This document shows positions 12,859-44,695 of a DNA stretch of 49,985 bases, piece by piece; position 1 is the stretch's first letter, and each line of letters starts with the position of its first letter. The translations under genes and the position numbers were made by a program. The notes beneath the pieces are model-generated. The model searched no databases. It was not told the origin of the DNA and saw only the letters and a list, made by a program, of their open reading frames with translations. Source of the DNA: a virus; IMG/VR virus record IMGVR_UViG_3300020185_000069, positions 1-49,985 of that record, one strand, 5' to 3'.

Positions 12859-12875
12859 AGTGTATTAATATACGA

Positions 12876-12886
12876 ATAAATATTAT
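12876..12886 (-). promoter_or_regulatory. Junction motif ATAATATTTAT containing the terminase stop
   Basis: The TAA at 12885-12883 that ends gp17 is part of the motif. The portal start follows 17 bases later. A second sequence, TATATTAATACAC, lies between motif and ATG and could be an alternative promoter element. Confidence 0.55.
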
Positions 12887-14454
12887 AAAAGCCAACTAAA
12901 ATCTTCAGATCCTCCCTTCCCATCATCCATGTGATAAGGGTTATCTTTCCCAGCAGAAAAATAGGCCCCTTGGTATCCTACTGTGGTTTTGTGGAATGAT
13001 CCTAAAGCTGCTTTAGTTACATCTACTCCGTGTTGTTTAAATTTTAGGGCTGTGTCTCTCACATATAACCCTGTTCCAAAACTCATTACTAAATCATCAT
13101 TATAACCTTGTTGTGCCTCGGCTCTACCATATTTCCAAATAAACGTTTTCATTTCTTCTAATAAACGTTTAGATTGTATAGTAACTCCTTTATCAGCAAC
13201 ATACTCTTGAAATTTACCAATAACCATTGGACGAGTTCTAGAAGACATAGTAAATCCTGCTGTCATATTAGAACTATTTTCATAATTTTGTAAATATGAA
13301 TCCACATTTACATTATCCGATTTAGGGGAGTAATATAAATTAGGATAATTTTTTTCTATTATAGTTTGGATTGTGCTCCAACCAATATTAGCATTTTCTA
13401 CTATGAGTAAAGCATTATTATATTCAGTAGCAATAGCAGTTAATATATTACCAAAATCTTTAGTACCTACTTGACCCTTATATTCTCCTACTTGAGTTGC
13501 AGATTCAATATCAAAAATATGAAATGCTGAATAATCCTTGCCATCTCCTCTAGCTACGTCAGCTGATATCATATATGAGCGGCTATAATCTGCGGGTTGC
13601 CAAATCCACAGGTTTTGGTCTACTCCACGTCTTTCAAGAGGTTCTTTAAGGGTGGTTTTTTCTATAAACTCAAGATATTCAGGGTAGAATACTATATCCC
13701 CAGATGTGCTAAAATCACAATCACACTCTTGTGCGGCCATACGAGGATCTCCAAGTAATTCATCTTGTCTATCTCTCCATTCTTGATTTCGTTCAGGGTG
13801 AACGTCCCAAGGAAGTTTAATAGGCAAAAATTCATTTTCTTTTGCTTCTGCTCTTGCCCATGTTTGATGAAACCAGTTACCAGTACCGTAAGGGGTAGAT
13901 AGGGCTATACACCCACCACCAGTAGCAAGTGTTTGTTGGGCTGATGCCCATATTTCACCAATATTGTCAATAAAAGCAGCCTCATCAATTAATAGAAGTG
14001 AAACTGCTTCTGATCTACCAGCATCGCTTGATGCTGAGGTGGCTTTAATTTGAGATCCGTTAGTTAATCGAAGTGTTAATTTATTATTTTCTTCAAAATC
14101 TACTTTGAGCCATGAAGGTAAATTTTCATACATAAATTTAACTTTTGTAACCATATTTTTAGCAGTTTCCTGTTTTGTAGCAATACATAAAACATTTTTA
14201 TCTTTATGGAAAGTCATTAACCATAAAGAATAACCTGCCGACAAAGTAGAAATACCTAACTGACGAGATTTTAAAACTACTGAGTATGGGTTATCCCTCC
14301 ATAATTTTAATACTTTTTCTTGGAAGGGGTACAAATGAAAATTGATTCTACCCCTTTGGGGGTGTTGAATCATGCAGTACTTTTTCATAAAGTGTATGGG
14401 ATCTTGTGCACACTTTATATATTCTTGTCTTATTATTTGTTTTAAATCACTCAA
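12883..14454 (-). CDS. gp17: Terminase large subunit, gp17-like
   Basis: 523 residues. ATPase motor: Walker A variant KSRQLGIST (62-70), Walker B LLLIDEAAF (153-161) and coupling motif CIALSTPYGTG (182-192). Nuclease domain: SADVARGDGKDYS (297-309, Asp299), LLIVENANIG (349-358, Glu353) and YNDDLVMSFG (451-460), the three acidic positions expected of the RNase H-like nuclease. It is shorter than T4 gp17 (610) but complete in motifs. It cuts concatemeric DNA and drives it through the portal. Its start overlaps the preceding lysis-like gene by four bases. Confidence 0.97.
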   Translation of the reverse strand: MSDLKQIIRQEYIKCAQDPIHFMKKYCMIQHPQRGRINFHLYPFQEKVLKLWRDNPYSVVLKSRQLGISTLSAGYSLWLMTFHKDKNVLCIATKQETAKNMVTKVKFMYENLPSWLKVDFEENNKLTLRLTNGSQIKATSASSDAGRSEAVSLLLIDEAAFIDNIGEIWASAQQTLATGGGCIALSTPYGTGNWFHQTWARAEAKENEFLPIKLPWDVHPERNQEWRDRQDELLGDPRMAAQECDCDFSTSGDIVFYPEYLEFIEKTTLKEPLERRGVDQNLWIWQPADYSRSYMISADVARGDGKDYSAFHIFDIESATQVGEYKGQVGTKDFGNILTAIATEYNNALLIVENANIGWSTIQTIIEKNYPNLYYSPKSDNVNVDSYLQNYENSSNMTAGFTMSSRTRPMVIGKFQEYVADKGVTIQSKRLLEEMKTFIWKYGRAEAQQGYNDDLVMSFGTGLYVRDTALKFKQHGVDVTKAALGSFHKTTVGYQGAYFSAGKDNPYHMDDGKGGSEDFSWLL

Positions 14455-14861
14455 TTTCTACTTAATAATATAGGAGTTAAAGTACCTACTAGAGTGGTTA
14501 AAATAGTTAAATTTCGGGTACTTTTAAGTGACTTAATTTTATCATTTTTATTATTTAAATCTAAATTTAAAGTAATATTTTGATTATAGCACTTTTTATT
14601 TAAAAATATTAAAGAATCTGTTGACATTTTATACATATCCAATAATATAGAATCTTGTTTTATAATACCATTTAAATCTGTAATTTCTGCTTTTAAAGAG
14701 TCTCTTACTTGTTGGCAAAAGTCATAAGAAGTAAGATCTAAGACTACTAATTTAGCTTGCTCTGTGGGTAAACAAACTAAATCAGTTGGGGTATCTTTTT
14801 GAGAAAAAATCGGTAAGCTCATTATGAGACATACCATCAACATTAGATAATTGTTTATCAT
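14451..14861 (-). CDS. Small exported protein, possible outer spanin or lysis protein
   Basis: 136 residues. It has a signal-peptide-like start (MINNYLMLMVCLIMSLPIFSQ), then VCLPTEQAKLVVLDL and YDFCQQVRDSL, a coiled-coil-like middle and a C-terminal hydrophobic segment (NLTILTTLVGTLTPILL). Bacteroidota phages often encode similar small exported proteins with a CLP-x-EQA motif; the function is not established. Met14 at 14822 is an alternative start that would shorten the signal. It overlaps the next upstream coiled-coil membrane gene by about 80 bases in another frame, an arrangement typical of spanin pairs. Role inferred, not shown. Confidence 0.6.
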   Translation of the reverse strand: MINNYLMLMVCLIMSLPIFSQKDTPTDLVCLPTEQAKLVVLDLTSYDFCQQVRDSLKAEITDLNGIIKQDSILLDMYKMSTDSLIFLNKKCYNQNITLNLDLNNKNDKIKSLKSTRNLTILTTLVGTLTPILLSRN

Positions 14862-15156
14862 ATTCTTTTTTGATTTGATTTAATTGTTCACTCCTAGTAC
14901 TAATAGTAATATTAAGACTATCTACAACCGTCTCAGTAGAAATTAAAGTAGATTCTAAATTTTCTTTTAATTCGGTTAAAGTGCTTATTTCTTTAGAAAA
15001 TTTAATTTTTTCTGCTTCTAAAAGTTCATTGAATTTAATTTCAGCTTCGATTGCTGCTTGTGTAACAAGATCACTTGTTGTATACCAAGTCAACCCCGCC
15101 CCTATGATTAACCCCGCAACTATTCCTAATCCCGCAAGTAATACACTATTCTTCAT
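14782..15156 (-). CDS. Single-pass membrane coiled-coil protein, possible inner spanin
   Basis: 124 residues. One N-terminal transmembrane segment (residues 5-25, LLAGLGIVAGLIIGAGLTW) is followed by a long Glu/Lys/Leu heptad-like region (about 35-110). This topology matches inner spanins (Rz type), and the partly embedded downstream gene encodes an exported protein, as in Rz/Rz1 pairs. A structural or scaffolding role cannot be excluded. Confidence 0.65.
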   Translation of the reverse strand: MKNSVLLAGLGIVAGLIIGAGLTWYTTSDLVTQAAIEAEIKFNELLEAEKIKFSKEISTLTELKENLESTLISTETVVDSLNITISTRSEQLNQIKKEYDKQLSNVDGMSHNELTDFFSKRYPN

Positions 15157-15167
15157 GGTAATACATA

Positions 15168-15952: not shown

Positions 15953-15953
15953 A

Positions 15954-17342: not shown

Positions 17343-17360
17343 TTGTATTTTGGAATTATG

Positions 17361-17392: not shown

Positions 17393-17408
17393 TTATGATG
17401 ACGCCACA
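17371..17408 (-). terminator. Terminator overlapping the FAD promoter
   Basis: Stem TGTGGCG (17378-17384 with 17402-17408) around a 17-base loop, followed on the minus strand by six T (17376-17371). It would end the transcript that includes the histone-like gene, and it shares its sequence with the promoter of the next gene. Confidence 0.65.
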
Positions 17409-17880: not shown

Positions 17881-18548
17881 TACCAATAAGTATTCATTTT
17901 ATTACCTAAACCAAGTGCAGGAGCATATCTAGGAAGGTTACAACTCCAGTATCCTGCTTTAGTTCTGTCCTTTTTATTTTTACAATTATGACGGGCTGCA
18001 AATGCCGCTCTTGCTTTAGGATTTCTAATTTTAGCCCTTAAACCACCTGATCCAAATGATACTTTTTTGATTTTTTTAGTCTTAGGGTTTCTTACATAAA
18101 CATAGTAAGCTTTAGAACCACCTCTTTTTGGTTTACCAATGGGTGGATCTTTTTTCTTTTTTTTCTTTTTTTTAGCTTCGTCTAATTCTTCTTCATTTAC
18201 AGCAGGTAAATCAAGTGGTACTTTTTCACCTTCAAAAATACCAAATTTACCAATATCAGTATTTTCCACTAAATGGCGGCTATTTTCATCTAATTGAATA
18301 GTACCCCACTCATTTAACATACGGGCTTCAGCAAATAATTGTAAATACTTTTTAGATCCTATTCTAAATACATTATCTTGTAATGAGACACCATTATCGA
18401 TGTGATACCGTAGGCCTTCGCTTATAGGCGCTTTACTTTCGAGTAATACGGGTTTATCTTCACATTGGTCACACCCACATCCACAATCTTCCTCTTTTAA
18501 GATAGAATAATTAATTAAAGATTCTTGGATTAATTTTTTCAGTGACAT
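17880..18548 (-). CDS. Cys/Lys-rich phage protein, DUF5872-like C-terminus
   Basis: 222 residues from the ATG at 18548; an in-frame extension to 18587 lies inside the preceding gene and the motif. The N-terminal helix (MSLKKLIQESLINY) precedes a Cys cluster CGCGCDQCED (about 22-31), possibly metal-binding. A Lys-rich linker follows (EAKKKKKKKKDPP). The C-terminal domain carries KVSFGSGGLRAKI, ARAAFAARHNC and KAGYWSCNLPRY. This basic Cys-containing domain is shared by several marine T4-like phages and resembles the protein at 21524-22000. Probably a virion or DNA-associated protein; function not established. Confidence 0.65.
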   Translation of the reverse strand: MSLKKLIQESLINYSILKEEDCGCGCDQCEDKPVLLESKAPISEGLRYHIDNGVSLQDNVFRIGSKKYLQLFAEARMLNEWGTIQLDENSRHLVENTDIGKFGIFEGEKVPLDLPAVNEEELDEAKKKKKKKKDPPIGKPKRGGSKAYYVYVRNPKTKKIKKVSFGSGGLRAKIRNPKARAAFAARHNCKNKKDRTKAGYWSCNLPRYAPALGLGNKMNTYW

Positions 18549-18551: not shown

Positions 18552-18565
18552 TATAAATATTATTA
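18552..18565 (-). promoter_or_regulatory. Junction motif TAATAATATTTATA
   Basis: The initial TAA is the stop codon of the 411-aa gene. The ATG at 18548 follows only three bases later, so a transcript starting downstream of this box would be leaderless or begin inside the gene. Confidence 0.45.
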
Positions 18566-22000: not shown

Positions 22001-22007
22001 GTTGAAT

Positions 22008-22015
22008 ATAAATAT
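22008..22015 (-). promoter_or_regulatory. Junction motif ATATTTAT
   Basis: A shortened copy of the recurring motif lies 7 bases before the DUF5872-type gene start at 22000. Confidence 0.35.
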
Positions 22016-22896: not shown

Positions 22897-25152
22897 TTAA
22901 TTTTTAAGGGAATCTTCCCAATTTCTAAATAAAATATTACCTTCTTCGTATGCCTCACGCTCAATACTCTCTAAAGCATCATCTTCATTAGTATTTGTAG
23001 TATTACTATGATCTAAAGTGCCTTCTAAATTTTGATGATGGTGAATTAATTCATGGGCGTATGAACGTAAAACGTCTTTAGGATGTCTATCTAATGTGTA
23101 AAGAACAACTTTCTGTTCACTTGGCATATAATAAGCAGTCCTACCAAATATATTAGCAGCATTTTCTTTATCATCCTCTATAAATTCTAATTGGGGGTAA
23201 GGTTTTAAATTTAAACCTCCTTCATTTGCCATATAATCCGTTAATGAAGTTATTTGAGGGGTTAAATCTTCTTCTAATGTTTCATACCCGGAACCATAAG
23301 GAGATGATTTTTGATCGTGGTTAGGATCCACTTCTGTTAAGTGTTTTAAGTAGGGTTCTTCAGATCCATCCATGTAAATAATTGTCCAATCTTCAGGGTT
23401 ATTTCCTATTTTATTAATTTTGTTAACCTCTTTATCTCCTATGGTTAATTTTTCTTCTAACTCAATTTTTTCATTGGGAGTTTTAAAATTCCTTTTACGC
23501 ATAACTGTTTTAGCAATAGCTTTATTAGCCATTTTCATAAACGGAATATTGATATTAGTTTCCGTATCTGTAGCAACTACACTTTTATACTTGTTGAGAA
23601 AATCAATAAACTCTTCTCTATTATCACCTAATTTAGTAAAAAAGTCTTCTAATTCAAGATAATTTATTTGAGGATTATTCCTAGGGTCATTTAGTCTATC
23701 AAAAAAGTGATTACCTGAAAGATCTACATCTATAGGGTTTAATTCTCTATCTGCTAAGCTATCTAAATCTTCAACATCTTGTTGATCAAAATCCTCTTTT
23801 ATTTTAGTTAAAGAAACACCAGGCATGTTGGTTTCTAACCAATTCATCCAAGTTTCTCTTACAAAATCTTCTTCTTCAGGATCCAAATCATACTCATAAC
23901 TATTAAATAAATCATCAATAGCTTGTTGTAAACTTATTTTTTTAGCTTTAGCTTTAGTCCTTAGCCCTTGAATATGGCCTGGAATTTCATAGTCAAGAGT
24001 AAGGTATTCTACATCTGGTAAATCATCTTGGTCTACTCCATCTTCACCAGGTCTAACTCCTTTTTCAGCTCTATATTGGGCAAGGTGTTCTAATTCGTGT
24101 CTAACAGAATTTCTTAATTCAGCACTTAACTCGCTATATAATTGTTTATCAAGAAGTTCTGGGTTATATTTTATCTCAATTGCTATATCTTTAGGTCCTG
24201 CAGATCCTTCTACCTTGAAGGGCATAAATCCTAGTCCTTTTTTCATAGGATAAAACCCATATACTAACTCGTATTCTTTACCTACTAAAGCACCTTCAGT
24301 TGAATCTTCTACTTTAGTACCTACAGTTTTAAGGAATTGTTTCATTAAAAAACGAGTTTGCATTCGGGTTTCTGCATCGTATGCAATACGTTCTTGTAAA
24401 GGTTGTTCTTCTAATCCTAACGTAGCTAATTTAGTATAGTATTGAGGATCTTCATCCAAATGATCTAAAGCAATTTTTAAAGCTATTTTAGGATCGTCAG
24501 TATGTTCTTTTTCAACTTCAATTCCTTTCCTTAACTCTTCTTTATCATACTTATGTTTATATTCTTTAACCACATCCGTTAACATATCCCAAATTTCATC
24601 TATTTCGGGGATGTCTGGGAAGAATTGTATAAATGTTTCTTTATCTTTTGCAAGTAAAGCTTTACGGGCTTTAGTTCCACTTACTGAGTCGGAAGTGATA
24701 ATTTTTTTGGGTTGTATATTAGTATAGTCTCCCCTTCTTAAAGCTCTAGTTCTTTTAATAAAATCATAAAAATCATCTTTATTACCCTCTCTCTCACCCA
24801 TAAACCAATAAATTTCCTTATCGGGATTTTTTTTAGCATAAGAATATATAGCCCCAATAGGAGGTTTATTATCAGGAGAGGCCATTACCACTACTTTACT
24901 AGGAAGGGATTTTTTATATATATTCCAAATAGCTAATGATTCTTCTTGACTAATTGAATCTCGAGTCCCACTACCTACCAATACAATTAAAGCATCCATT
25001 TCAGGATTTTCTTGTAAAGCTTTCTTTACTACCTCTAAATGTCCTGATGTAGGGGGTTTAAATCCTCCTCCAAACATTCCAACTATTTTCTTTTTAGGCA
25101 ATGTATTTTCACCTAAAATTCCTTCTACTAATGCTTGGGATAAAAAATTCAT
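22897..25152 (-). CDS. Nucleotidyltransferase fused to two HExxH domains
   Basis: 751 residues with an unusual architecture. N-terminus: cytidylyltransferase-like fold with FGGGFKPPTSGHLEVV (27-42, the H-x-x-x-x-G-H-type site degenerate to T-S-G-H) and SVSGTKARKAL (155-165, the I-S-x-T-x-x-R equivalent). Next is a DUF5661-like segment, DPKIALKIALDHLDEDPQYY (219-238). Then a first zincin-like motif HELEHLAQY (351-359) with a downstream IPGHIQGL. The C-terminus has a second HELIHHHQ (700-707) with a later E-x-x-A-Y-E-E-G that could supply the third ligand. Functions could be nucleotide transfer plus protein processing. It overlaps the kinase gene by four bases. Confidence 0.8.
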   Translation of the reverse strand: MNFLSQALVEGILGENTLPKKKIVGMFGGGFKPPTSGHLEVVKKALQENPEMDALIVLVGSGTRDSISQEESLAIWNIYKKSLPSKVVVMASPDNKPPIGAIYSYAKKNPDKEIYWFMGEREGNKDDFYDFIKRTRALRRGDYTNIQPKKIITSDSVSGTKARKALLAKDKETFIQFFPDIPEIDEIWDMLTDVVKEYKHKYDKEELRKGIEVEKEHTDDPKIALKIALDHLDEDPQYYTKLATLGLEEQPLQERIAYDAETRMQTRFLMKQFLKTVGTKVEDSTEGALVGKEYELVYGFYPMKKGLGFMPFKVEGSAGPKDIAIEIKYNPELLDKQLYSELSAELRNSVRHELEHLAQYRAEKGVRPGEDGVDQDDLPDVEYLTLDYEIPGHIQGLRTKAKAKKISLQQAIDDLFNSYEYDLDPEEEDFVRETWMNWLETNMPGVSLTKIKEDFDQQDVEDLDSLADRELNPIDVDLSGNHFFDRLNDPRNNPQINYLELEDFFTKLGDNREEFIDFLNKYKSVVATDTETNINIPFMKMANKAIAKTVMRKRNFKTPNEKIELEEKLTIGDKEVNKINKIGNNPEDWTIIYMDGSEEPYLKHLTEVDPNHDQKSSPYGSGYETLEEDLTPQITSLTDYMANEGGLNLKPYPQLEFIEDDKENAANIFGRTAYYMPSEQKVVLYTLDRHPKDVLRSYAHELIHHHQNLEGTLDHSNTTNTNEDDALESIEREAYEEGNILFRNWEDSLKN

Positions 25153-25943
25153 GCTAAAAAGGATTTTAATTTAGATTGTGCTTCTTCAGCTGATATGGAG
25201 GTGTTTATGATGTCTTTTACTCCTTCATCAGCTAGTAATGCTTTTATTTGCTCAGCATCTTTAGCTTTTTGAGCATCAGATTTAGCTTGTTGGGCAGGGG
25301 TTTTAGGTTTAGTACCTTTAGGGGTAAAAGGTTCAAGGTATTTAGTTACTATAGATTCCAAATCTGTTAATTTTTCATCTCCTAAAGTGTTAGCAACAGA
25401 TACAAAATTGTTACCAAACAATTGTTTATAAGGAGCAAAATTTTGAGTTACACTTTTCCATGTTCTCATTACTATAGCAGGGGCTAAACTTCTATCTTCC
25501 CCCCCTGACTTTTCAAACCTATCCTGGTTTTGTTTAAGGGAGCGTTCTAGATCAGTATAAACATAAAGCATAAAAACTTCATATCCTGTTTCTTCTAATT
25601 CACTTTTTAATTTAGATGTTTCTTTTAATGAGGCGCCTGTGCCATCTAATATGAATGATTCTTTTTCTCCTATAGTAGTTGTTAAATTACTTTTAAACTC
25701 TTTATTAGCTGCAGCCATAGCTTTAGCTTGATTACTTCTTTCTTCAGGAGAAGCGTTTTTTAAGTCCAATGTAATATTAGCCTTTTTTAACATAGGAACA
25801 TAAATGTCATCTACATTTAATACCTTTAAATTCCCTAAGTCTAAACCCCTTAAAATATACCCTTTTCCAGCACCAGGAGCTCCTGCTAATATAATAGCTT
25901 TGGGTTTACCTTGTATTTCTTTTAAAATATCATATAATTTCAT
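25149..25943 (-). CDS. Zeta-toxin-like P-loop kinase
   Basis: 264 residues. Walker A is GAPGAGKGY (21-29) and the D-D pair in VLNVDDIYVPML (38-49) follows as in zeta-toxin/UDP-GlcNAc kinase and polynucleotide kinase-like proteins. ESFILDGTGAS and FMLYVYTDLERSLKQN complete the core, with RTWKSV downstream. The C-terminal 60 residues are Lys/Ala/Glu-rich. No antitoxin is adjacent, so a nucleotide- or RNA-modifying kinase is at least as likely as a toxin. A junction motif lies 13 bases upstream. Confidence 0.75.
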   Translation of the reverse strand: MKLYDILKEIQGKPKAIILAGAPGAGKGYILRGLDLGNLKVLNVDDIYVPMLKKANITLDLKNASPEERSNQAKAMAAANKEFKSNLTTTIGEKESFILDGTGASLKETSKLKSELEETGYEVFMLYVYTDLERSLKQNQDRFEKSGGEDRSLAPAIVMRTWKSVTQNFAPYKQLFGNNFVSVANTLGDEKLTDLESIVTKYLEPFTPKGTKPKTPAQQAKSDAQKAKDAEQIKALLADEGVKDIINTSISAEEAQSKLKSFLA

Positions 25944-25956: not shown

Positions 25957-25967
25957 TATAAATATTA
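25957..25967 (-). promoter_or_regulatory. Junction motif TAATATTTATA
   Basis: The TAA is the stop codon of the PD-(D/E)XK gene. The kinase start at 25943 lies 13 bases downstream. Confidence 0.5.
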
Positions 25968-27673: not shown

Positions 27674-28123
27674 TTACTTATCAAAGTCTGAGGTAAAGAA
27701 CTTACCTAAAATATTATCATTGTAGTATAAATCGGGTTTTTCTAAAACCTCCATCTGGAATAGGTGTTTGGTTTCGAGGTAGGTGAGGTGTTTTTTATTG
27801 AAAGCTACCTCAATAATTTGTTTCCCCAAATCCTCCAGTGTAACTTCTTTACTGTTGATTTGGTTTTTAAGATGGGTATTTGACCCATAATATTTTTTCC
27901 AATCACTTTCTTTTTGAATTACTCGGAATGTTTTTTTCCTCCCACGTCCTGTTTGTTCCGATAACTCTGCTTTGGTGAGTTTCTTTTTAATATTATGGAA
28001 TAAAACTTTTTTTCCTATATATTTTTTACCCTTGGGGGTAATTACTTCATATATAAACCCAAATGTGTTAGGTGGGAATTGCGATATGTCTGTAATTTCT
28101 TTACCATTATATAACCAATTCAT
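27674..28123 (-). CDS. GIY-YIG-type endonuclease (Seg-like)
   Basis: 149 residues. GFIYEVITPKGKKYIGKK (22-39) carries the G-x-I-Y and K-Y-I-G elements of the GIY-YIG nuclease fold. DWKKYYGSNTHLKNQ and a late E (TYLETKHLFQ) with YYNDNI fit Seg-type phage endonucleases. Such proteins can act as homing endonucleases or in DNA processing. A lone gene between structural and replication genes is a typical site for a homing endonuclease. Confidence 0.7.
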   Translation of the reverse strand: MNWLYNGKEITDISQFPPNTFGFIYEVITPKGKKYIGKKVLFHNIKKKLTKAELSEQTGRGRKKTFRVIQKESDWKKYYGSNTHLKNQINSKEVTLEDLGKQIIEVAFNKKHLTYLETKHLFQMEVLEKPDLYYNDNILGKFFTSDFDK

Positions 28124-28856: not shown

Positions 28857-29701
28857 TACTTATCTATTCTTATTATGAAATTTGTATCAGTATAGGGGTT
28901 TAATTTAACAGCTTGGGCTAATTTACCCACCATCATTAATTCTTGATTTTCATTGTATAAACCAACTGTAGTAACGTATGGCATAAATTCAGGGCTATCT
29001 ACTACTCTATGGTTATATTGGGTACTAGAACCTGAGAGTAGGGAGGGGTTTAATGAGTAATTAAATTCATTGGGTCCGGCAGTACATTTATATTGAGTAG
29101 AATATATTGTATAAGAACCTGAAAAGTCAACCCTACTAGCTGGGTCTCCATCAGTTCTTACTATAATACCTTGATCATAAAAAATATTACCTATTATATT
29201 TTCACTTCCATCTATTATATTACCTGTACTATCATCCGTAAATCCTATTCCAACAACAGTACCTGGTACTATAGATTCTCCCATTTCCTTAGTTGAAATG
29301 CTTACCACAGATACCGTTTCTTCATAATCTACTGGGAGATTTCGTTGATATATTAAGCTTCCTTGGAAAGAAGGGTCAAATCTACTAAATGTCCCTTCAG
29401 GTATAGCTGTAGGAGTTTCACCTGAAGTAAAGTTAGAGAAGATACTTCCATTAATTAAGAAATCTTGACTAATGAAAGCTCCATAAAATAACTGTCTTAT
29501 AGAATTATATAAACTAGCTTGGTTCCCAATCCCCTCCCCTGGGAGGGGGCCAAAATCTAGTCTAGAGGAATACCCCCCTGCTAATTCTGTATATATAAGA
29601 TTTTTAGCCGTAAGTACAGTACCCCGTTGTGTTTGGGAACTTTTTACTTGTATAGGGGTAACCCTAATATCACCCCCTGTTAATTTCTTGAATACACCCA
29701 T
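28856..29701 (-). CDS. Virion structural protein, paralogue 2 of 3
   Basis: 281 residues. Common core includes EFNYSLNPSLLSG and YVTTVGLYNENQELMMVGKL, matching the two neighbours. The opening VFKKLTGGDIRVTPIQVKSS also aligns with theirs. The middle part differs most (SVVSISTKEMGESIVPGT), so the copies have diverged in one surface region. Tail-associated role inferred from location. Confidence 0.75.
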   Translation of the reverse strand: MGVFKKLTGGDIRVTPIQVKSSQTQRGTVLTAKNLIYTELAGGYSSRLDFGPLPGEGIGNQASLYNSIRQLFYGAFISQDFLINGSIFSNFTSGETPTAIPEGTFSRFDPSFQGSLIYQRNLPVDYEETVSVVSISTKEMGESIVPGTVVGIGFTDDSTGNIIDGSENIIGNIFYDQGIIVRTDGDPASRVDFSGSYTIYSTQYKCTAGPNEFNYSLNPSLLSGSSTQYNHRVVDSPEFMPYVTTVGLYNENQELMMVGKLAQAVKLNPYTDTNFIIRIDK

Positions 29702-31159: not shown

Positions 31160-31179
31160 TGTTTTTTATTGTATATGTA

Positions 31180-31190
31180 ATAAATATTAT
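31180..31190 (-). promoter_or_regulatory. Junction motif ATAATATTTAT
   Basis: Located in a 79-bp gap after the 727-aa gene and 20 bases before the start at 31159. Here the motif does not contain the preceding stop codon, so conservation is not simply due to stop codons. Confidence 0.55.
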
Positions 31191-31238: not shown

Positions 31239-33422
31239 TTATACCTCAATTATTCCAGCCTGTTTTAAATCAAAAATTAGTTGATCTGCCCTAGCTTCTA
31301 AATTTTCACTTCGGTATTGGGCAGTTATTATACCACTAAATGGTTGATCAACCCCTGCTTCAATATTTTTCTTAGCATCTAAGATTAGATATTGTCCATC
31401 TTCTACAATTCTATATATAACAAAATTATCCAGAACAGTGGATGTAGAAATAACCCCATCTAACTTCAATTTTAAAGTCCCTCCCAAAGAATTTATTCCA
31501 ATAATTTGGAAAGTATTTTGTTTAGAATATTCAAATCTAATAAAATCTCCTACTACAGGAATAAAAGGTAATCTAATAGGATTAAATCCAAATAAATCCC
31601 AAGTTTTTTTATTATTATTAGTATTATTATTAGGGTATAAAGGGGTAGAAGCAGCACCGTTGGCGTTAAAAATATTGTAATTTTCTGTACCTGCTGCTAC
31701 TTGAATATACTCTCCCCCATAAAAATTAGTTAATGTAGAAGAAGCAGTTACGTAACTAAATGATGATGATTCGTTTTCAATATTGTTATATCCCACCCAA
31801 TAACTTGAAGTGTAATTATAATAAGAAGCAGTAACAAAACCATTATTCCCCACATAACCATAACTAGCAGTAACCCCAGTTATACCATTAAAAAATTGGT
31901 CACCTGGTGGGACTTCTTGGGATACTTTTAAAGATCCCCATTTATATTTATATTTTCTTTTAGAATTTATGTTTTTATGGACATCCAAAGATTCAGTAAA
32001 AAACGTTTGAGACCATGCTACAGTATTACTGCTACCTTCAAATTCTATATTAGAAAAATAAGAATCATTATTAACATATAATTCTCCATATATTTTATCC
32101 CCTTCTTCCACATCAAAAAAATTAGTTTCTACTACTAAATCTTGGGAAGATAATAAATTAGCTCCATCAGTATTACTACCTACTAAAGGTCCCCAACTAA
32201 ATTCATTATCATTTATATCTAAAATATTAAATATCTGATGATAATTTTGGTCCTTAAAATGGGACATATTATTTGTTGTATAACCCGCAGTAGGGTGAAC
32301 TAAAGATTGATTAAGAGCATTTATGGCCTTTTGGGTTGATCCTAACTCCACCACAGTACCACCTATATCTTTTTTAAATACTTTAAGTGTAACCAGAGCA
32401 TATAGGGGTTCCTCTAAAACTGTAGTGGATGTAAATAAGTCATTAACACTACTGGTAGTAATTGTCACAGAAGCTCCTAGTGTTGCTTTTACTCTAGTAA
32501 GTCCTATCATTGAACTTGTAGTAAATTCAATGTTATTAAAATAGTTATCAAGCTCAAAATTCAAACTACTTAACTGGGAGGAGTCAGGGTTAACCCCCAC
32601 CACTCCATCAAAAGTCCTTGCTAAAAAGCTCCCAGACCCTGTAGATACACTATTTAATCCATCATAATGTAATTGGGCGGGGATAGTAGAATTAGCATCT
32701 ATAATATCTGTACCATAGGTCCAATTTCCAATAGGAGTACCATTACTTAAAGGAATATCAATATACCCTGAAGAGGTATATGCAAAAGGTAAATCTTGAT
32801 ATCCTCCATTTTTTTCGGCTACAATATAATAATTAGCAACTGGGAGACCTGGGGGGGATGCTAGTTGATCTTTTTGTTGGAAGGACATTGTAGTTACATA
32901 ATCGTATGGGCCCTTCCCAATTTGGGTTCCCAAAATAGGTTCTAAAGAACCTACTGCAGTAATTCTATGGTTACCTGCTAATTGTTGGTTTAGAACAGTT
33001 CCCTGGTCTACCCTTACGGTGGCTACTTTTTGTCTTTCAAAATTTTGAGTTATATTTTTTACTGCTATAGTATCTTCTGCGGGTTTAGATACATTTAATA
33101 TTGAGTCACACAAATAAGTAACTTTAAATTGAGTTTGATCAATAATTTCAGGAGAAGTATCCCCCGCTTCAAATATAACTGCAAAATATTCTTGATTTTT
33201 ATCAGCTACTGCTTTCCCTCCCAATACTCCTTCAATAGGAGTAAGGTAGGGATCTTGTGCTAAGACTGAATCTATGACATTAGCTTGTGCTGCTTCCTGA
33301 AGTAAAGGATTATTATTTATGATTTCCTCAGGAATCCCTCCCTTACCAATCAATGAAGAATCAGGATTAGTATCATTAGGAGGACCTGGGGGGAGTAAAG
33401 GGGGTGGGGTATATCCTGCCAT
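31239..33422 (-). CDS. Large virion structural protein
   Basis: 727 residues. Proline-rich N-terminus (YTPPPLLPPGPPNDTNPD), then beta-rich, Ser/Thr/Asn-rich sequence throughout, such as VTASYGYVGNNGFVTASYY, as in fibres and baseplate-associated proteins. The N-terminal 130 residues include YFAVIFEAGDTSPEIIDQT. C-terminus is mixed helical (ARADQLIFDLKQAGIIEV). No catalytic motif. Probably a tail or baseplate surface protein. Confidence 0.65.
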   Translation of the reverse strand: MAGYTPPPLLPPGPPNDTNPDSSLIGKGGIPEEIINNNPLLQEAAQANVIDSVLAQDPYLTPIEGVLGGKAVADKNQEYFAVIFEAGDTSPEIIDQTQFKVTYLCDSILNVSKPAEDTIAVKNITQNFERQKVATVRVDQGTVLNQQLAGNHRITAVGSLEPILGTQIGKGPYDYVTTMSFQQKDQLASPPGLPVANYYIVAEKNGGYQDLPFAYTSSGYIDIPLSNGTPIGNWTYGTDIIDANSTIPAQLHYDGLNSVSTGSGSFLARTFDGVVGVNPDSSQLSSLNFELDNYFNNIEFTTSSMIGLTRVKATLGASVTITTSSVNDLFTSTTVLEEPLYALVTLKVFKKDIGGTVVELGSTQKAINALNQSLVHPTAGYTTNNMSHFKDQNYHQIFNILDINDNEFSWGPLVGSNTDGANLLSSQDLVVETNFFDVEEGDKIYGELYVNNDSYFSNIEFEGSSNTVAWSQTFFTESLDVHKNINSKRKYKYKWGSLKVSQEVPPGDQFFNGITGVTASYGYVGNNGFVTASYYNYTSSYWVGYNNIENESSSFSYVTASSTLTNFYGGEYIQVAAGTENYNIFNANGAASTPLYPNNNTNNNKKTWDLFGFNPIRLPFIPVVGDFIRFEYSKQNTFQIIGINSLGGTLKLKLDGVISTSTVLDNFVIYRIVEDGQYLILDAKKNIEAGVDQPFSGIITAQYRSENLEARADQLIFDLKQAGIIEV

Positions 33423-33440
33423 TTATTATTAACTTTATCT

Positions 33441-33450
33441 ATAAATATTA
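33441..33450 (-). promoter_or_regulatory. Junction motif TAATATTTAT
   Basis: The TAA is the stop codon of the 1190-aa gene. The ATG of the 727-aa gene follows 18 bases later. Confidence 0.5.
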
Positions 33451-36400: not shown

Positions 36401-37020
36401 ATCCAAGGATTTAAATTTCCTCCAATTTGAATAAATGAGGGGAGTGGTTTGTATAATTTTACTAATATAGAATATTGGTTGTTATTACCATCAAATAATA
36501 TATTATTAGCAATAAATAAATTACCCTGGCCAAAGTTTAAATAAAAATCAGGATAATATCCCGTAGTAATACTTTCTGGGAAGAATTCCTCTACAGCTTG
36601 TTTTAATTGCTCCTCATTTAAAAATCCCGAAGTAAGTCTTATTTCTTGCCTATTAGACGATATTTCTTTAATTCTAAAACTTTGATTAATAGAAGAAGAA
36701 AGTTCATTATTTAATATATTATATATTACATTATAACTTCCTATACTATATCCTAATTCTTCAACTGCCTTCTGGGGGTATACTTCTAATGAATTAGCTT
36801 CTGTAATATTTCCTCCACCTCCATTTTCTATTATGGAGTAAAGAGAATTAGCATTATAATCTAGTAAATTACCATTAAGATCATATATCAAAGTTTCTGC
36901 TCTACCTTCTCCGGTATTAAATGTAGGGGTTACAAAGAAACGTGGGATGGTATTTTCATCCCCCTCAGAATATTGTTGGGGTTCGAATGTACTAGGATCT
37001 ATTAACTTAATTAAAGCCAT
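33448..37020 (-). CDS. Very large tail/baseplate protein (possible gp7-like position)
   Basis: 1190 residues, the longest gene in the window. The segment YKRIYHNLPLLLRQKGSMAG followed by IRTLITCFGLPHTITNIKEYN is a pattern I associate with tail/baseplate proteins of Bacteroidota phages. Other parts are Asn/Ser/Tyr-rich. The C-terminus is Ser/Pro/Gly-rich (SSPSSPNNPSAPDPGGG), probably flexible. It lies downstream of gp25 and gp6 in the place where T4 has gp7, so a baseplate-wedge role is inferred from order and size; sequence similarity to T4 gp7 was not seen. Confidence 0.6.
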   Translation of the reverse strand: MALIKLIDPSTFEPQQYSEGDENTIPRFFVTPTFNTGEGRAETLIYDLNGNLLDYNANSLYSIIENGGGGNITEANSLEVYPQKAVEELGYSIGSYNVIYNILNNELSSSINQSFRIKEISSNRQEIRLTSGFLNEEQLKQAVEEFFPESITTGYYPDFYLNFGQGNLFIANNILFDGNNNQYSILVKLYKPLPSFIQIGGNLNPWICTLQRETIAYNVTFEQEIIPVKNTIDLKGPNFSLDLNNQIHTSIKPTSFNDLNNLNNLQSSSYEELQYILNQKGIEVNIDYTDLNNFIHFSSAEMRVRNFYSKMVDLDQYNKQLVQSHSIDNIAVSQSAYLIQNKIDSIVKNFDGFEHWMYYNSSSNSYPPQGFPTPWPKKGGVDPPYYSQNYLPSNNASIVDPWYENAIFSSSLYDEQNKDNLNKAIPDYLLEDEANEPYFRFIGMIGQHFDTLFTYIQDISNRYNADNRLNFGISKDLVGEAIKSMGINLYTGNFNSTNLYSSLIGVGANNSHILPLENGQDLDQITNYVTASNLITPTEDVNKEIYKRIYHNLPLLLRQKGSMAGIRTLITCFGLPHTITNIKEYNIDYRGTTQSLAPINTSGSISWNTESISLPPSRSGYIPPEFLSPSVRVQQHYVKSESYDRSLQYAEVGYSPQGYYDDNGLSTFNSLGDDFPDFSEFYYGDNPNYYTTKFINDSVSPTITQDVEWDFSAYIRYIKFLDSSLFSMVKDFIPARTSTATGVIIKPTIKERNRQRPAHLFTHNATYSGSVDTQYYDWNGTRYIRKAIGDYDARIKTGSFEWAGSTAGGWNASNQSQFSSGAANLSAWELSRDLSTPVKGLVQHWSESVYTQMGYAQQYAQTGSKIIEDGNHKVVHNTQDEFYNGIFKQTGIGNFDNYLIREMATGSSNDGAGVIRTDNNRFNPYKHPSDNEFQLSKTNVYNGTELIDALDNGDEMILLQENGYITIIIKSGDGSALPLKEVLLSNGNILDLKVGNVPCTAQVGTATVAPFYADYVSFQVIGGEEGITNYYVLDLLNVVDYNAPFNPNALDIQPGPWAYNDYNPLINNSSDPQAGFTNYNGIRKSDFQMDADYSPSSAEPSIPINWVQLGNGSASRAPVQDSYYTSRWWVNSRYYGVRNSSPDFNVDIIKSATNINTVKSDGIGLDVSSSSPSSPNNPSAPDPGGGPSGD

Positions 37021-37024: not shown

Positions 37025-37035
37025 TATAAATATTA
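37025..37035 (-). promoter_or_regulatory. Junction motif TAATATTTATA
   Basis: The TAA is the stop codon of the 139-aa gene. The ATG at 37020 follows only four bases after the motif. Confidence 0.5.
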
Positions 37036-40853: not shown

Positions 40854-41182
40854 TATTTATTATTCATTAAACCCATTATTTGGTTCATATTAACTTCCCC
40901 CGCGGGTAAATCTCCCCCTGGCATCCCCCCTTGTGGGTTAAATGGTTGGGGAACATTTTGGGATGTGAATTTAGCTCTCATATCCCCCATAATATTTTGA
41001 TATTCTGCTTTTCTATCACGAGAACTTATAACAGTCCCTTCATTAATAGGAGGGGGTGGAGGAGTTTCCACAATAGTTTGTTTAGGGGCTTTAATAGCTT
41101 CCACAAGAATTTCTTTTAATTCTTCTTGAATCGCTTCCCTTACTGCTTCTTTAACCAATTTTTTAAATACGTTTTGTTTCAT
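40853..41182 (-). CDS. Small unknown protein before gp25
   Basis: 109 residues. N-terminal helix with many Lys/Glu (KKLVKEAVREAIQEELKEIL), a proline run (ETPPPPPINEG) and a flexible Gly/Pro/Met-rich C-terminus. The similarity in design to the 139-aa gene near gp6 (helix plus proline run) suggests a similar linker role. Function unknown. Confidence 0.6.
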   Translation of the reverse strand: MKQNVFKKLVKEAVREAIQEELKEILVEAIKAPKQTIVETPPPPPINEGTVISSRDRKAEYQNIMGDMRAKFTSQNVPQPFNPQGGMPGGDLPAGEVNMNQIMGLMNNK

Positions 41183-41187
41183 TATTT

Positions 41188-41197
41188 ATAAATATTT
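41188..41197 (-). promoter_or_regulatory. Junction motif AAATATTTAT
   Basis: A near-copy of the motif (AAATATTTAT) lies 5 bases before the ATG at 41182. Confidence 0.4.
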
Positions 41198-41199
41198 AA

Positions 41200-43137
41200 T
41201 TAATCTGCTCTTAAATTATCCCTATCTATTACAAATTTTAACTCCTCAATTAAAACTGAAGGGTTAGAGGCAAATGATGATTCACTTCTTAAAACTTGTA
41301 TCCCTTGAACATTTCGAGCAATAGCGTATCGTTTAGGATATTGGAAATTTTGGCTAGTGTCGTTTTTGATTTCAAATGTAAATCCCTGGTATGGGAAGGG
41401 TTTATCTGTTAGGGGATCAATTATGTCATCATTTTGTTGGGGGGATAAAGGATCCTTAAAACTATTAATTTCAACATTAATCTCATCAAAAGACAAAGTA
41501 AATCCCCCTCCTAGATCAGGCTTTTCAGCACATCCCCTTATTAGTTCATCTAAATTATTTAATAATTCTAACATATATCCTAGAAAAAATCCTAAAACAG
41601 CAACATTTAAGTTTAAATTTGTAATTGCAAACCCTGCTTTTGTTAGAATACGTTCTACATCTCTATACCCACCCTCTATAAAGGGATTCCATAAATCTTT
41701 TAACCCCACAAAAGGTGGAGAGGTAGGGCCTGGGATAGAATTTAAAGTCTTCGCAAGATTAGTTGCGATTTGTAATCCTATTATAAAAATATTTGTTACT
41801 TTTAAAATTTTAGATACAACTCTTACTGTTTTATATAAATTATTAATCTGTCTTGTTAACTTATTCCTTTTGTCTAAAACTTCTTGTAACTTATCTGCGG
41901 GTAAACACACAGCATCCTTAAAAGGATTTTTTTGTCCCCCTATAAGACTATTTAATACCCCTGGTCCAAATTTAGCTATTAAACCCAAAATTACAGGTAT
42001 TAAGGCTCTTTTTATGGTTTCTTTTTTAGTATTATATATGTTAACAAGTTTCTGTTCATATGAGGTTTCTATTAATGCTTTTTCGTGAGATAGTTTATTT
42101 TCAACTTCTTGGATTTTAATTTTTACCTCTGTTACTTTTTCTTCTATATTTTCTACAAGAGGTTTTAAAATAACTCTACCCACTTCATAAATGTCAAACT
42201 TAATTTTATTTTCATCTAGAGAAGAGGGGTCGGACTCTGCAGAAATCTCTTGGGATTTTAAGGCTAATTGCTTTTCAGCATCACTCCTAGCTTTTTTCTT
42301 AGCTATTTCCCTATCTTGACTTATTCCTACCCCAATAACGATTACTCCTAATTCTAAAGCTTTTAACTCTATTTCCGCTCTATATTTTTTATCTTCTTGT
42401 TGAATTAATTTTTCGTTTAAGATTTGAGTAGGACCCTCAAACTTTTGGGATACTGCAGGTTTAGGGGTGTTAACAAATTCCTCACCACTTTTACCTATAT
42501 TAGGACCTACTTGCTTAGGAAAAAATTCTTGCTTATTTATTGTAATATAGGATTTTTCAAAATCTATATCCTCATCCCCTCTAAATTCTAAAACAAAACT
42601 CCCATCCTCTCCAGATTTAGCAGGGTCTAATATTAAAGCTGTTGCTCCAATTCCCACAATAGTATCCTCAAAATTTGTAAGCCCAGCATTTACACTCTCT
42701 ATATCAGATACTGTAGTAGAGTTTGTTCCTGCTCCTAAGTAGGTAGCTGATATAGATTCTTTTGTTAAGAAAAAGGGGGTAATTTTAGCATTTTCAAGAG
42801 GGTCACCTTCTTTAGTTACTATTCTACCTTTTATTCTAAAAGAATTAGTATCTTTTCTAGGGGGGATAGCTATTTTAGGATTAATACTAACTATTTCAAG
42901 ATCCCCAACATTTAACCCCTCAGAAAGAAAAGTTATTTCACTATTTATAATAGCTTTTAAATTTTGAGAATTAGATACATCCCCACTCCCTAAAACCTTT
43001 TCAGAATAAGGAGCACCCTCAGGAGATTTAATAACCATAAGGGTGGTACCATTATCTTGTACTATAAGGTCAATATAGTATTGGTTACTTAACCCATATA
43101 TAGTGTTGGTTTGATATTTGTTTATGGGTGCCTCCAT
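41200..43137 (-). CDS. Large structural protein with membrane-like segments
   Basis: 645 residues. Contains a carboxypeptidase-regulatory-like segment (FRIKGRIVTKEGDPLENAKI, with GSFVLEF about 50 residues later), a coiled-coil region (NIEEKVTEVKIKIQEVENKL), and three hydrophobic stretches (RALIPVILGLIAKFGPGV, TNIFIIGLQIATNLA, LNLNVAVLGFFLGYMLELL). Such a mix suggests a protein that contacts a membrane during injection. It is between the gp5-like spike and gp25. No family name can be given. TAATG coupled to the spike gene. Confidence 0.6.
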   Translation of the reverse strand: MEAPINKYQTNTIYGLSNQYYIDLIVQDNGTTLMVIKSPEGAPYSEKVLGSGDVSNSQNLKAIINSEITFLSEGLNVGDLEIVSINPKIAIPPRKDTNSFRIKGRIVTKEGDPLENAKITPFFLTKESISATYLGAGTNSTTVSDIESVNAGLTNFEDTIVGIGATALILDPAKSGEDGSFVLEFRGDEDIDFEKSYITINKQEFFPKQVGPNIGKSGEEFVNTPKPAVSQKFEGPTQILNEKLIQQEDKKYRAEIELKALELGVIVIGVGISQDREIAKKKARSDAEKQLALKSQEISAESDPSSLDENKIKFDIYEVGRVILKPLVENIEEKVTEVKIKIQEVENKLSHEKALIETSYEQKLVNIYNTKKETIKRALIPVILGLIAKFGPGVLNSLIGGQKNPFKDAVCLPADKLQEVLDKRNKLTRQINNLYKTVRVVSKILKVTNIFIIGLQIATNLAKTLNSIPGPTSPPFVGLKDLWNPFIEGGYRDVERILTKAGFAITNLNLNVAVLGFFLGYMLELLNNLDELIRGCAEKPDLGGGFTLSFDEINVEINSFKDPLSPQQNDDIIDPLTDKPFPYQGFTFEIKNDTSQNFQYPKRYAIARNVQGIQVLRSESSFASNPSVLIEELKFVIDRDNLRAD

Positions 43138-44336
43138 TATTTAAGCTTTATGTTCTTAGATAGAATTTTAGGATCATCACCTTTTATGACCTTTTTAAAA
43201 TCCTTTACAACAGCTACTAAACTGGGACCTATACTATTTAGAGACCCTACAGGAACTTTATCAGCATTAGCATCTGTTAAGGCTAATCCTACTCCTTCTA
43301 ATACTTCTAAAAGTAACTTTAAATTATTTACTAATTGATCTCCTAACACTGCTCTTTCTTCTGCATTTCTATCTCCTAAGTAAACTTTTTGGGACGAAAG
43401 AACTATCTTATCCCCACAGTCCATATGGATAGAATCTCCCGAACTCAAATGTATAACATTTGGGGAACTAATTAAAACTCCATCTGATTGGGCGTTTAGT
43501 ACTAATCTACCCGAGGTAAGGAGTATTTGGTTTCCTTGGTATTCGGATGATATAGGGGAAGGGGAGTCTCCTTCTCCAAAAGAATCTACTTTGAGGGAGG
43601 CGGGGAAAAATGGGATTTTTTGGGTACTTGTAAGATATATAGATGAAAGGTCATTATTAATATCTTCAACAATAGGGACATAAGAAGGATCCGAAGATGG
43701 GAAAGGTAAATTTCCATTTTTTAAAATAATAATAGGATCTCCCTCTTTTCCTTCGCTAGACCAATTATTAAATACATCTGAAGATTTTACTGTACTTCCA
43801 AACCTAATACTGTTACCCCACCTTCCTTCTAAAATATGGTCCCCTTCATATGGGTATAAAGCTCTTACTTTAGGGTTTTCCTTAAAAGTTTGACCCAAAT
43901 ATATCTTGTTAGATTGGGCATTAGGAGTAGATTGTATGGGATCCGGTAAAGCATTATGATTAATAGCATTCCACCCATTTGTTGGGGGGAAATAATATAA
44001 TAATTTAGAGTTTCTTTGGGACTTAGACTGGGATTTTACAAAATTAGTGGCTTTAATGATATTGACAATTTCATTTACAAGGGGGTAAAATTTAGAATTT
44101 GAAAAGTAAGGGCGGGCAGATCCTAAAATACTCCCCACATTTTTTACTCCCGGATTTTCGATCGAAGAAAAAAACACAGTCCCCAATCCGGCCCATCCTC
44201 CTACTTCATTAAAACGAGGGTGGTTAGGGCTTAATACTATATCTCTTACTCTAACACTTATAATCTCCACCCCTTTCCCATAAATCTTATTGAGGGGTTT
44301 ATCGGGTTCTATTCCTATGGGACCATAATTAGACAT
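43137..44336 (-). CDS. gp5: Baseplate central spike/hub protein, gp5-like
   Basis: 399 residues. ILEGRWGNSIRFGSTVK (about 169-185), GDPIIILKNGN and EDINNDLSSIYLTSTQKIP are features of gp5-type hub/spike proteins of T4-like phages. The repeating strand region GNQILLTSGRLVLNAQSDG, VLISSPNVIHLSSGD and SIHMDCGDKIVLSSQKVYLG resembles the triple-stranded beta-helix of the spike. No lysozyme domain is visible, unlike T4 gp5. The C-terminus is helical. It pierces the host envelope at the tail tip. Confidence 0.8.
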   Translation of the reverse strand: MSNYGPIGIEPDKPLNKIYGKGVEIISVRVRDIVLSPNHPRFNEVGGWAGLGTVFFSSIENPGVKNVGSILGSARPYFSNSKFYPLVNEIVNIIKATNFVKSQSKSQRNSKLLYYFPPTNGWNAINHNALPDPIQSTPNAQSNKIYLGQTFKENPKVRALYPYEGDHILEGRWGNSIRFGSTVKSSDVFNNWSSEGKEGDPIIILKNGNLPFPSSDPSYVPIVEDINNDLSSIYLTSTQKIPFFPASLKVDSFGEGDSPSPISSEYQGNQILLTSGRLVLNAQSDGVLISSPNVIHLSSGDSIHMDCGDKIVLSSQKVYLGDRNAEERAVLGDQLVNNLKLLLEVLEGVGLALTDANADKVPVGSLNSIGPSLVAVVKDFKKVIKGDDPKILSKNIKLK

Positions 44337-44674
44337 TACTTTTTATCCTTACCAAACTTTTTTATTTCCCCTAGCAATTGCTCTTTTTCTGCATCAGTCA
44401 TCCCAAATCCATCATCACTTGTATCAGTTTGAACTGCTTTTTGGACTATATTAGCCATTTTAATGAGCTGTTCATCATTTTTAACAGATATTTCAAGGTA
44501 TTCTTTAAGTAAAGGAACTACTAGAGTAGCATCTCCAATGTCCTGAATTAAGGGTTTTAATTCTGATATAAGAGTAGAGATTTGTTCCTCTTTTTTTTTC
44601 TGATTGTTATATATCTCTTCAAGAATATCAGAAAATTTTTTATTACCAAATACATTTTTTTCTAATTGTCCCAT
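44336..44674 (-). CDS. Small helical phage protein upstream of spike
   Basis: 112 residues, helical, with coiled-coil features (YNNQKKKEEQISTLISEL). Contains ATLVVPLLKEYLEISVKNDE and ends FGMTDAEKEQLLGEIKKFGK. Size equals T4 gp33, the late co-activator encoded next to 55 in T4, but no sequence similarity was seen. Role could be baseplate assembly or late transcription; open. A junction motif precedes it. Confidence 0.6.
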   Translation of the reverse strand: MGQLEKNVFGNKKFSDILEEIYNNQKKKEEQISTLISELKPLIQDIGDATLVVPLLKEYLEISVKNDEQLIKMANIVQKAVQTDTSDDGFGMTDAEKEQLLGEIKKFGKDKK

Positions 44675-44684
44675 GGCAATAAAT

Positions 44685-44695
44685 ATAAATATTAT
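44685..44695 (-). promoter_or_regulatory. Junction motif ATAATATTTAT after the gp55 stop
   Basis: The TAA at 44694-44692 ending the sigma factor gene is embedded in the motif. The next start at 44674 follows 10 bases later. Confidence 0.55.

Follow-up and report, generated by a model that had tools for sequence, protein, structure and literature searches.

A putative diverged T4-type late promoter at the gene junctions of a Far-T4-like phage

The virus record IMGVR_UViG_3300020185_000069 of IMG/VR, analyzed over its 49,985 bases (hereafter the window), contains T4-type virion genes for the major head protein, prohead protease, portal, terminase and baseplate wedge, and the 53 gene starts of the set used here are all on the minus strand. 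Shortly upstream of many of these starts, the coding strand carries the octamer TATTTATA or its weaker form TATTTATT, usually with an A in front. We consider this octamer to be the late promoter of a Far-T4-like myovirus, diverged from the T4 type, with a probability of about 0.78, and lean towards a gp55-like sigma factor encoded at positions 44692–45414 as the protein that reads it. In the mechanism proposed, this sigma would very probably bind the host core RNA polymerase and recognize the octamer as a -10-like element, and transcription would start about 4–5 nucleotides (nt) past the octamer and run through the virion gene clusters. We infer promoter activity, late timing, the start point and the role of the sigma from the sequence features described below.

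Occurrence of the octamer in the window

In the original prediction, the motif was an 11-mer with a leading TAA, found before 15 listed starts. Its exact form, TAATATTTATA, occurs 6 times in the window, always on the minus (coding) strand, whereas 100 dinucleotide shuffles gave a mean of 0.38 and none reached 6. The excess over shuffled sequence is confined to exact copies: when one mismatch was allowed on both strands, the 16 copies were no more than chance would give (shuffled mean 11.85, with 16 or more copies in 16 of the 100 shuffles). The signal thus resides in position and orientation, and the mismatch-tolerant genome-wide count was replaced by tests of these two properties. The leading TAA is not kept in relatives, whose shared core consists of TATTTAT[A/T] with an A in front.

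The window contains 11 sense copies of ATATTTATA, each of them situated 3–40 nt upstream of a gene start (P = 4e-16 against an expectation of 0.44). The same holds for 11 of the 13 sense copies of TATTTATA (expected 0.52), 3 of 5 copies of TATTTATT and 1 of 2 copies of the variant TATTTATG (that at 2389). The T4 late octamer TATAAATA had been stated to appear only on the opposite strand; this was incorrect, since the coding strand carries 7 of its 20 copies, although none of the 7 falls within 3–40 nt of a start. Counted by gene, TATTTATA is present in the 50-nt upstream sequences of 11 of the 53 genes, compared with a mean of 0.57 and a maximum of 5 in 2000 first-order Markov sequence sets, and TATTTAT[A/T/G] is found within 45 nt of 14 gene starts. 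An unbiased count of 8-mers, based on a separate caller of open reading frames (ORFs; 51 called), ranked ATATTTAT first (12/19). The list of 15 starts stands for 14 of them, which have TATTTATA or, in three cases, TATTTATT or TATTTATG; a late promoter at the remaining start, 7798, was rejected, no octamer being present in the 100 nt upstream.

Conservation at the same junctions in relatives

Homologous starts were located in 160 IMG/VR loci and in Flavobacterium phage immuto, and TATTTAT[A/T] was counted in the last 50 nt of the distinct upstream sequences. The loci were those fetched around the portal and sigma genes only (the best 80 for each), related loci are not independent, and 16 of the 53 window genes have no or one aligned relative start. 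At the junctions bearing an octamer in the window, it was kept in 229 of 281 distinct upstream sequences, compared with 10 of 429 before all other genes, so that the recurring junction motif of the original prediction does persist at the same junctions in relatives (Table 1). Nine of the ten exceptions are at 15156 (6/9) and 9516 (3/9). In the window, the upstream regions of these two minus-strand genes have degenerate octamers (TATGTATT, TACGTATT) directly before the ATG, perhaps late promoters that are weak or have decayed. When window region 31239–33422 was used as a query for relatives, none was found.

Table 1. Octamer sites of the window and the proposed reader, with distances to the downstream start and occurrence in relatives
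Feature	Position	Strand	Remarks
TATTTATA	886..893	-	10 nt before TTG start 875 (collagen-like frame, window edge); no relatives aligned
Variant TATTTATG	2400..2407	-	10 nt before 2389; TATTTATW in 4/4 relatives
TATTTATA	4772..4779	-	26 nt before 4745; 10/13 relatives
TATTTATA	10930..10937	-	13 nt before 10916; 57/57 relatives
TATTTATT	12875..12882	-	16 nt before portal gene (gp20) start 12858; adjoins terminase stop TAA 12885-12883; 58/62 relatives
TATTTATA	18552..18559	-	3 nt before ATG 18548; possible leaderless mRNA; 0/2 relatives
TATTTATA	22007..22014	-	6 nt before 22000; no relatives aligned
TATTTATA	25957..25964	-	13 nt before 25943; adjoins stop TAA; no relatives aligned
TATTTATT	31179..31186	-	19 nt before 31159; 1/1 relative
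TATTTATA	33440..33447	-	17 nt before 33422; adjoins stop TAA; no relatives aligned
TATTTATA	37025..37032	-	4 nt before 37020; adjoins stop TAA; probable leaderless mRNA; 6/11 relatives
TATTTATA	41187..41194	-	4 nt before 41182 (gene just upstream of baseplate wedge genes); probable leaderless mRNA; 43/44 distinct relatives
TATTTATA	44684..44691	-	9 nt before 44674; adjoins stop of gp55-like gene; 43/51 distinct relatives
TATTTATA	47149..47156	-	11 nt before 47137; weakly conserved, 7/36 relatives
gp55-like sigma, 240 aa (amino acids), proposed octamer reader	44692..45414	-	phrog_234 match, hhalign, AlphaFold2 model

Direction of reading

The genes of the window and of immuto are nearly all one-directional, and the orientation in which the motif is read is undecidable from these two phages alone. 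This matters in that TATTTATA is the exact reverse complement of TATAAATA, and a T4 octamer on the other strand might drive antisense late RNA. Two relatives with genes on both strands were informative. In Microcystis phage Mel-JY01, for which all 220 plus-strand and 17 minus-strand coding sequences (CDSs) were used, the 9 intergenic copies of ATATTTATA are all followed within 60 nt by a start on the same strand (8 genes, with one copy on the minus strand), and same-strand pre-start positions are occupied by 12 of 22 intergenic copies of TATTTATA (two on the minus strand) but by only 2 of 22 copies of TATAAATA. In Rhodothermus phage RM378 (NC_004735), an unbiased word count revealed TATTTAA within 45 nt of 37 starts (24 minus, 13 plus), with 61 copies in the genome; the extended form TATTTAAA precedes starts in 25 of 35 copies, compared with 5 of 35 for its reverse complement, 0 of 13 for TATTTATA and 1 of 13 for TATAAATA. 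Since the motif follows the genes on both strands in Mel-JY01 and RM378, gene direction is also the direction in which the TATTTA core is read. An antisense T4 promoter was rejected on this two-strand evidence and is in our opinion scarcely credible; moreover, TATTTAAA of RM378 and the T4 octamer are not complementary, and a fixed gap of 3–5 nt to the ATG would have no meaning for a promoter directed the other way.

Two putative promoter classes in phage immuto

The immuto record is complete (160,410 bp), and 233 of its 239 CDSs, those on the plus strand, were used, six small minus-strand CDSs being left out. Starts are preceded by 23 of the 30 sense copies of TATTTATA (expected 1.65) and by 8 of 23 copies of TATTTATT (expected 1.26), but by none of the 8 copies of TATTTATG. 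The logo of 26 octamer sites reads [AC]TATTTAT[AT]nnnAA, with nothing clear upstream: over the stretch from -42 to -2 relative to the octamer, the information content stays at or below 0.36 bits, i.e. no -35 element was detected in these sites. The search pattern behind the logo excluded G at the last octamer place, so the logo cannot show G there, and three of the 26 sites (22750, 62853 and 111063) look like chance matches to TATTTATT.

A second class, consisting of 25 early-type sites found by pattern, has the logo GTTGC-N19-TATATTTAGGTAT and is written here as GTTGC-N19-TATATTTAG. TTG at the -33 distance is present in 24 of the 25 early-type sites but in only 4 of the 26 octamer sites. The two classes also differ in location, with 15 of 20 TATTTATA sites and only 1 of 25 early-type sites (P = 6e-7) falling in the virion region, which we delimited from the annotation as 78.9–100.9 kb plus 116.5–160.4 kb. 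At 67–76 kb there is a run of small genes, many of which share a nearly identical promoter of the early type, GTTGC-N19-TATATTTAGGTATCAATAATTAAAA. The position, orientation and conservation of the octamer, its lack of a -33 element and its contrast with these early-type promoters are features of the sequences themselves.

These data bear on the possibility that the octamer serves the host sigma-A, as a -7 box (TAnnTTTG) lacking a -33 element, and not a phage sigma. In register, the octamer agrees with the host box at 6 of 8 places if n is counted as agreement, sharing TA at places 1–2 and T at places 5 and 7; its apparent distance to the start point matches the 4–5 nt reported for the host -7 box (PMC6847099; PMC9723704), and the -33 element is reported to be weak in F. 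johnsoniae promoters too (PMC6847099). However, the host box is described as having a nearly invariant last G and a T two places earlier (PMC6847099), whereas the octamer has A or T at place 8 and A at place 6. The variant TATTTATG precedes starts in 0 of 8 copies in immuto and 1 of 2 in the window (2389), TTG at -33 is as rare as noted above, and immuto possesses a separate early-type class (TTG plus TATATTTAG) while the octamer marks virion genes. A host sigma-A promoter is in our view unlikely.

Anchoring of the octamer was analyzed in immuto gaps of at least 50 nt. Pooled TATTTAT[A/T] (20 sites) was not decisive, the median distance being 41 nt from the stop (standard deviation 34) and 25.5 nt to the start (standard deviation 33). 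In gaps of the same size, the downstream start was no more than 35 nt away for 8 of 9 TATTTATA copies, and the preceding stop for 2 of 9. For TATTTATT the corresponding figures were 4 of 11 and 7 of 11, i.e. there was no start anchoring, which suggests that many of the immuto TATTTATT copies are chance occurrences.

A hairpin followed by a T-run ends just before 5 of the 7 immuto octamers examined (25061, 43413, 119017, 128591 and 130599, with folding energies of -8.4 to -15.5) and was not found before the other two (120621 and 147026); the RM378 boxes at 29547 and 99207 are likewise preceded by a hairpin and T-run (-16.9 and -18.2). If transcription ends at these hairpins, it must restart at or after the octamer. 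The octamer could alternatively act at the RNA level, as a translation start context or an mRNA processing site in the 5' leader, and it is indeed always near a start codon, no Shine-Dalgarno sequence is evident by eye at the window gene starts, and an A-rich context is reported to help initiation in Flavobacterium (PMC6847099). The hairpins directly preceding it do not fit such a role, nor do the variable spacing to the ATG (3 to 33 nt) and the near absence of the octamer from the other genes of the same phages (10/429). We consider an RNA-level signal quite improbable, and retain the diverged late promoter as the preferred reading.

Predicted start point and leaderless mRNAs

Among immuto sites with a spacing of 8–35 nt, A occupies the fourth base past the octamer in 84% and the fifth in 88%. 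In relatives, the fourth base is A in 79% when averaged over nine genes, a value that includes close-spaced genes whose ATG itself gives the A. While the spacing between octamer and ATG in relatives ranges overall from 3 to 33 nt, it is, without deduplication, exactly 4 nt in 61 of 63 cases at 41182 and in 5 of 6 at 37020, and 3 nt in 31 of 66 at 44674. The smallest spacing of TATTTAAA to the ATG in RM378 is 5 nt, observed in 8 of 25 sites. For comparison, the flavobacterial -7 box is placed 4–5 nt before the start site (PMC6847099) and spans -12 to -5 (PMC9723704), and the T4 late octamer is placed at -13 to -6 (PMC2988020). Because the downstream A preference, the ATG spacing and the flavobacterial -7 box distance agree, transcription of the close-spaced genes is predicted to begin on the A of the ATG or on a neighbouring base.

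With the ATG at or beside the start point, the late mRNAs of some gene heads would be leaderless or nearly so, probably at 41182 and 37020 and perhaps at 18548. Leaderless mRNAs are reported to constitute 5.5% of the mRNAs with high-confidence starts in F. psychrophilum (PMC9723704). A conserved spacing of 3–5 nt would make these phages a natural source of leaderless mRNAs in a phylum that lacks Shine-Dalgarno signals.

Relation to the preceding stop codon

It had been noted that the initial TAA of the motif is the stop codon of the preceding gene at six junctions. We found this at 12885, 25967, 33450, 37035 and 44694; at 18565, the stop TAA is one codon before the TAA of the motif. The further suggestion, that the promoter is functionally fused to the stop codon, finds no support in the relatives. 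At the portal junction, the octamer adjoins the terminase stop in 47 of 57 framable relatives, but this stop is TGA in 4 of them (TAA in 43). The distance from stop to octamer varies from 0 to 23 nt at 10916, 41182 and 37020. At 44674, the 43 framed relatives comprise 18 with the octamer within the last sigma codons (TAT TTA TAA), 8 with the octamer adjoining the stop and 17 with the octamer 4–16 nt past it. This variable arrangement indicates that the stop codon is a neighbour rather than a component, and a stop codon as part of the promoter was rejected. The overlap probably reflects genome compaction, with the promoter squeezed into a very short gap. Some relatives have sigma proteins ending in -YL, because TAT TTA TAA would serve there as both the promoter and the last codons.

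The gp55-like sigma

In six-frame searches, phrog_234 (gp55, the late sigma of T4) matched only the product of 44692–45414 in the window record (E = 0.0019) and only its orthologue in immuto (E = 0.0083). Comparison by hhalign of 21 rows of this sigma with nine T4-type gp55 proteins gave a probability of 90.6% over residues 18–112. The AlphaFold2 model has a mean pLDDT (predicted local distance difference test) of 70.9, and its residues from about 19 to 122 align with sigma-2 domains, for example those of 1or7 (Z 9.9; 2.5 Å over 96 residues) and 4lup (Z 9.2; 2.4 Å over 90 residues); whole-model alignments extending beyond residue 200 have root mean square deviations above 20 Å. A BFVD search returned one unnamed match (E = 2.1e-4), followed mostly by phage sigma factors with E values from 0.025 upward, and no Pfam family was above cut-off for the relatives of the window sigma. 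The last 100 residues are modelled with confidence (pLDDT 86.3) as a helical domain without a clear match to sigma region 4 (best Foldseek E value 0.39; best VIA match, a chain of the yeast RNA polymerase II pre-initiation complex, Z 4.8). As regards the original prediction of a diverged late promoter read by gp55, the orientation, conservation, start proximity, terminator-like hairpins and lack of a -33/-35 element argue well for a sense promoter, and the phrog_234 match, the hhalign result and the sigma-2 model speak moderately for the proposed reader.

The contacts of T4 gp55 with its promoter are known from cryo-electron microscopy and involve residues N13, R57, F86, H95, Y97 and T99, of which Y97 stacks on A-12, N13 and H95 touch -9 and T99 touches -8 (PMC7892883). 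In the 21 sigma rows, F86 (19 F, 2 Y) and Y97 (Y in 21/21) are kept, while N13 is T in 21/21, R57 is T in 20/21 and T99 is G in 19/21. The H95 equivalent is F or Y, as it also is in 6 of the 9 T4-type proteins. The agreement with the octamer (A to T at -9, with A kept at -8 though T99 is changed) is no more than suggestive. A T4-type sliding clamp (phrog_223) was detected in none of the three records, two of them full-length, a search that divergent clamps could escape and that did not cover gp33.

Observations weighing against the late promoter and its reader

Six sets of observations count against the interpretation given above. 1) Conservation is uneven, the octamer being present at 47137 in only 7 of 36 relatives and at 18548 in neither of two. 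2) In the uncultured phage LR756508, whose sigma is 42% identical, the 50 kb examined have TATTTATA before 0 starts (5 copies), TATTTATT before 1 start (2 copies) and no enriched 8-mer. 3) Before the starts of immuto, an enrichment of coding-strand TATAAATA is seen as well (6 of 15 copies, expected 0.82). Four of these six are at genes that also bear TATTTATA, three of them overlapping it as TATTTATAAATA and one lying 8 nt after the TATTTATA start, but the copies before 2426 and 46550 stand alone, without TATTTATA, and may be T4-like boxes or chance. 4) Mel-JY01 has no phrog_234 match by six-frame search or hmmscan, so that two of the three records are positive in the six-frame search; at a loose limit (E up to 10), phrog_234 also matches 7 of 14 control genomes, and hmmscan of the proteins against phrog_234 is weak (E = 0.034 for the window and 0.5 for immuto). 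5) Z scores of 9–10 are attainable by helical models without kinship, the structural matches are to sigma-2 in general and not to gp55, and the sigma model has no Foldseek match in PDB at E = 0.001 (best 0.095). 6) The annotated sigma of RM378 (128329–128928) does not match the gp55-like profile and was rejected as an orthologue of the gp55-like protein; it is ECF-like (extracytoplasmic function), with Pfam region 2 above and region 4 below cut-off.

Comparison with known late promoters

Like the T4 late promoter (TATAAATA, served by gp55, gp33 and gp45), the element described here is an 8-bp AT-rich -10-like box without a -35 element before virion genes, in a phage that encodes a divergent sigma-2-like protein, and 6 of the 8 octamer letters are equal in the sense direction. 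It differs from T4 in that i) TATTTATA has two central A to T changes and so departs from the consensus, ii) the apparent start is 4–5 nt past the box, as opposed to a T4 box at -13 to -6 (PMC2988020), iii) the sigma pocket is changed at N13, R57 and T99, iv) phrog_223 has no match in the three records, and v) some gene heads are probably leaderless. The T4 late promoter and its drift among T4-like phages are already known (PMC2988020); for example, the late octamer of Aeromonas phage Aeh1 is described as departing from the T4 consensus at the first two positions (a/gC for TA) (PMC2988020). Both octamers depart from the consensus, the one described here at two central positions instead. The gene-head motif TATTTAA[A] of RM378, a phage that groups with the window in the portal tree, shares the TATTTA core, the sense orientation and the proximity to the ATG, but it ends in AA as opposed to TA here, and the RM378 sigma is ECF-like with no gp55-like profile match.

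No description of the octamer, or of any late promoter from phages of Flavobacterium or Rhodothermus, was found in literature judged by titles and the beginnings of abstracts, and a mention in the primary papers on RM378 (Extremophiles 2014) or immuto is possible. According to the published account of the Far-T4 group, T4 transcription-regulation core genes were not detected there, and transcription might differ from that of T4 in a widespread aquatic group (PMC4360716). For Far-T4 relatives, the present analysis proposes a late-promoter code that can be tested, together with a candidate sigma and a predicted site of initiation. The joint change of the octamer centre and some pocket residues could also be a natural experiment in the co-change of a -10 element and its sigma, its value resting on the T4 gp55–promoter contacts known from cryo-electron microscopy. 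More tentatively, and extrapolating further from sequence, these phages might represent a branch of Bacteroidota T4-like phages with their own late code (TATTTA[T/A]A), in which diverged phage sigmas would act on the Bacteroidota polymerase without a T4-type clamp and leaderless late mRNAs would form a standing class.

Relatives of the window phage and other genes

The window portal protein shares 63% identity with that of immuto, the nearest named relative, 52% with Mel-JY01, 37% with LR756508 and 30% with RM378. In a portal tree of 15 rows, the window, these four phages and seven contigs split from T4, a cyanophage and an Ackermannvirus (100/100); branches are long, and the published Far-T4 contigs are not among the rows. 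The published Far-T4 group, a clade in Gp20, Gp23 and Gp17 apart from Near- and Cyano-T4, is reported to consist of RM378 and aquatic contigs (PMC4360716), and the window phage likely belongs to it. Its host is most likely a member of the Bacteroidota. Mel-JY01 (PP395634) is labelled a Microcystis phage, but its portal and sigma are similar to those of a Flavobacterium phage, and some of its upstream regions resemble Bacteroidota promoters by eye (TTG ... TATATTTGTA); the host label may deserve a check.

Several other minus-strand genes of the window are worth recording. Positions 1–1991 contain the frames of a collagen-like repeat tail protein, with an octamer preceding the TTG start at 875, and 48844–49659 encodes a sulfotransferase-family protein (Pfam Sulfotransfer_3, E = 1.3e-18). 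A cytidyltransferase-like gene is present at 22897–25152, the immuto gene near the same place being annotated as NadR, and a gene at 27674–28123 matches a PHROG named NAD (nicotinamide adenine dinucleotide) synthetase; the two possibly form a set for NAD metabolism. Between them, 25149–25943 encodes a Zeta-toxin-family kinase-like protein (Pfam E = 2.7e-16) with its own octamer upstream.

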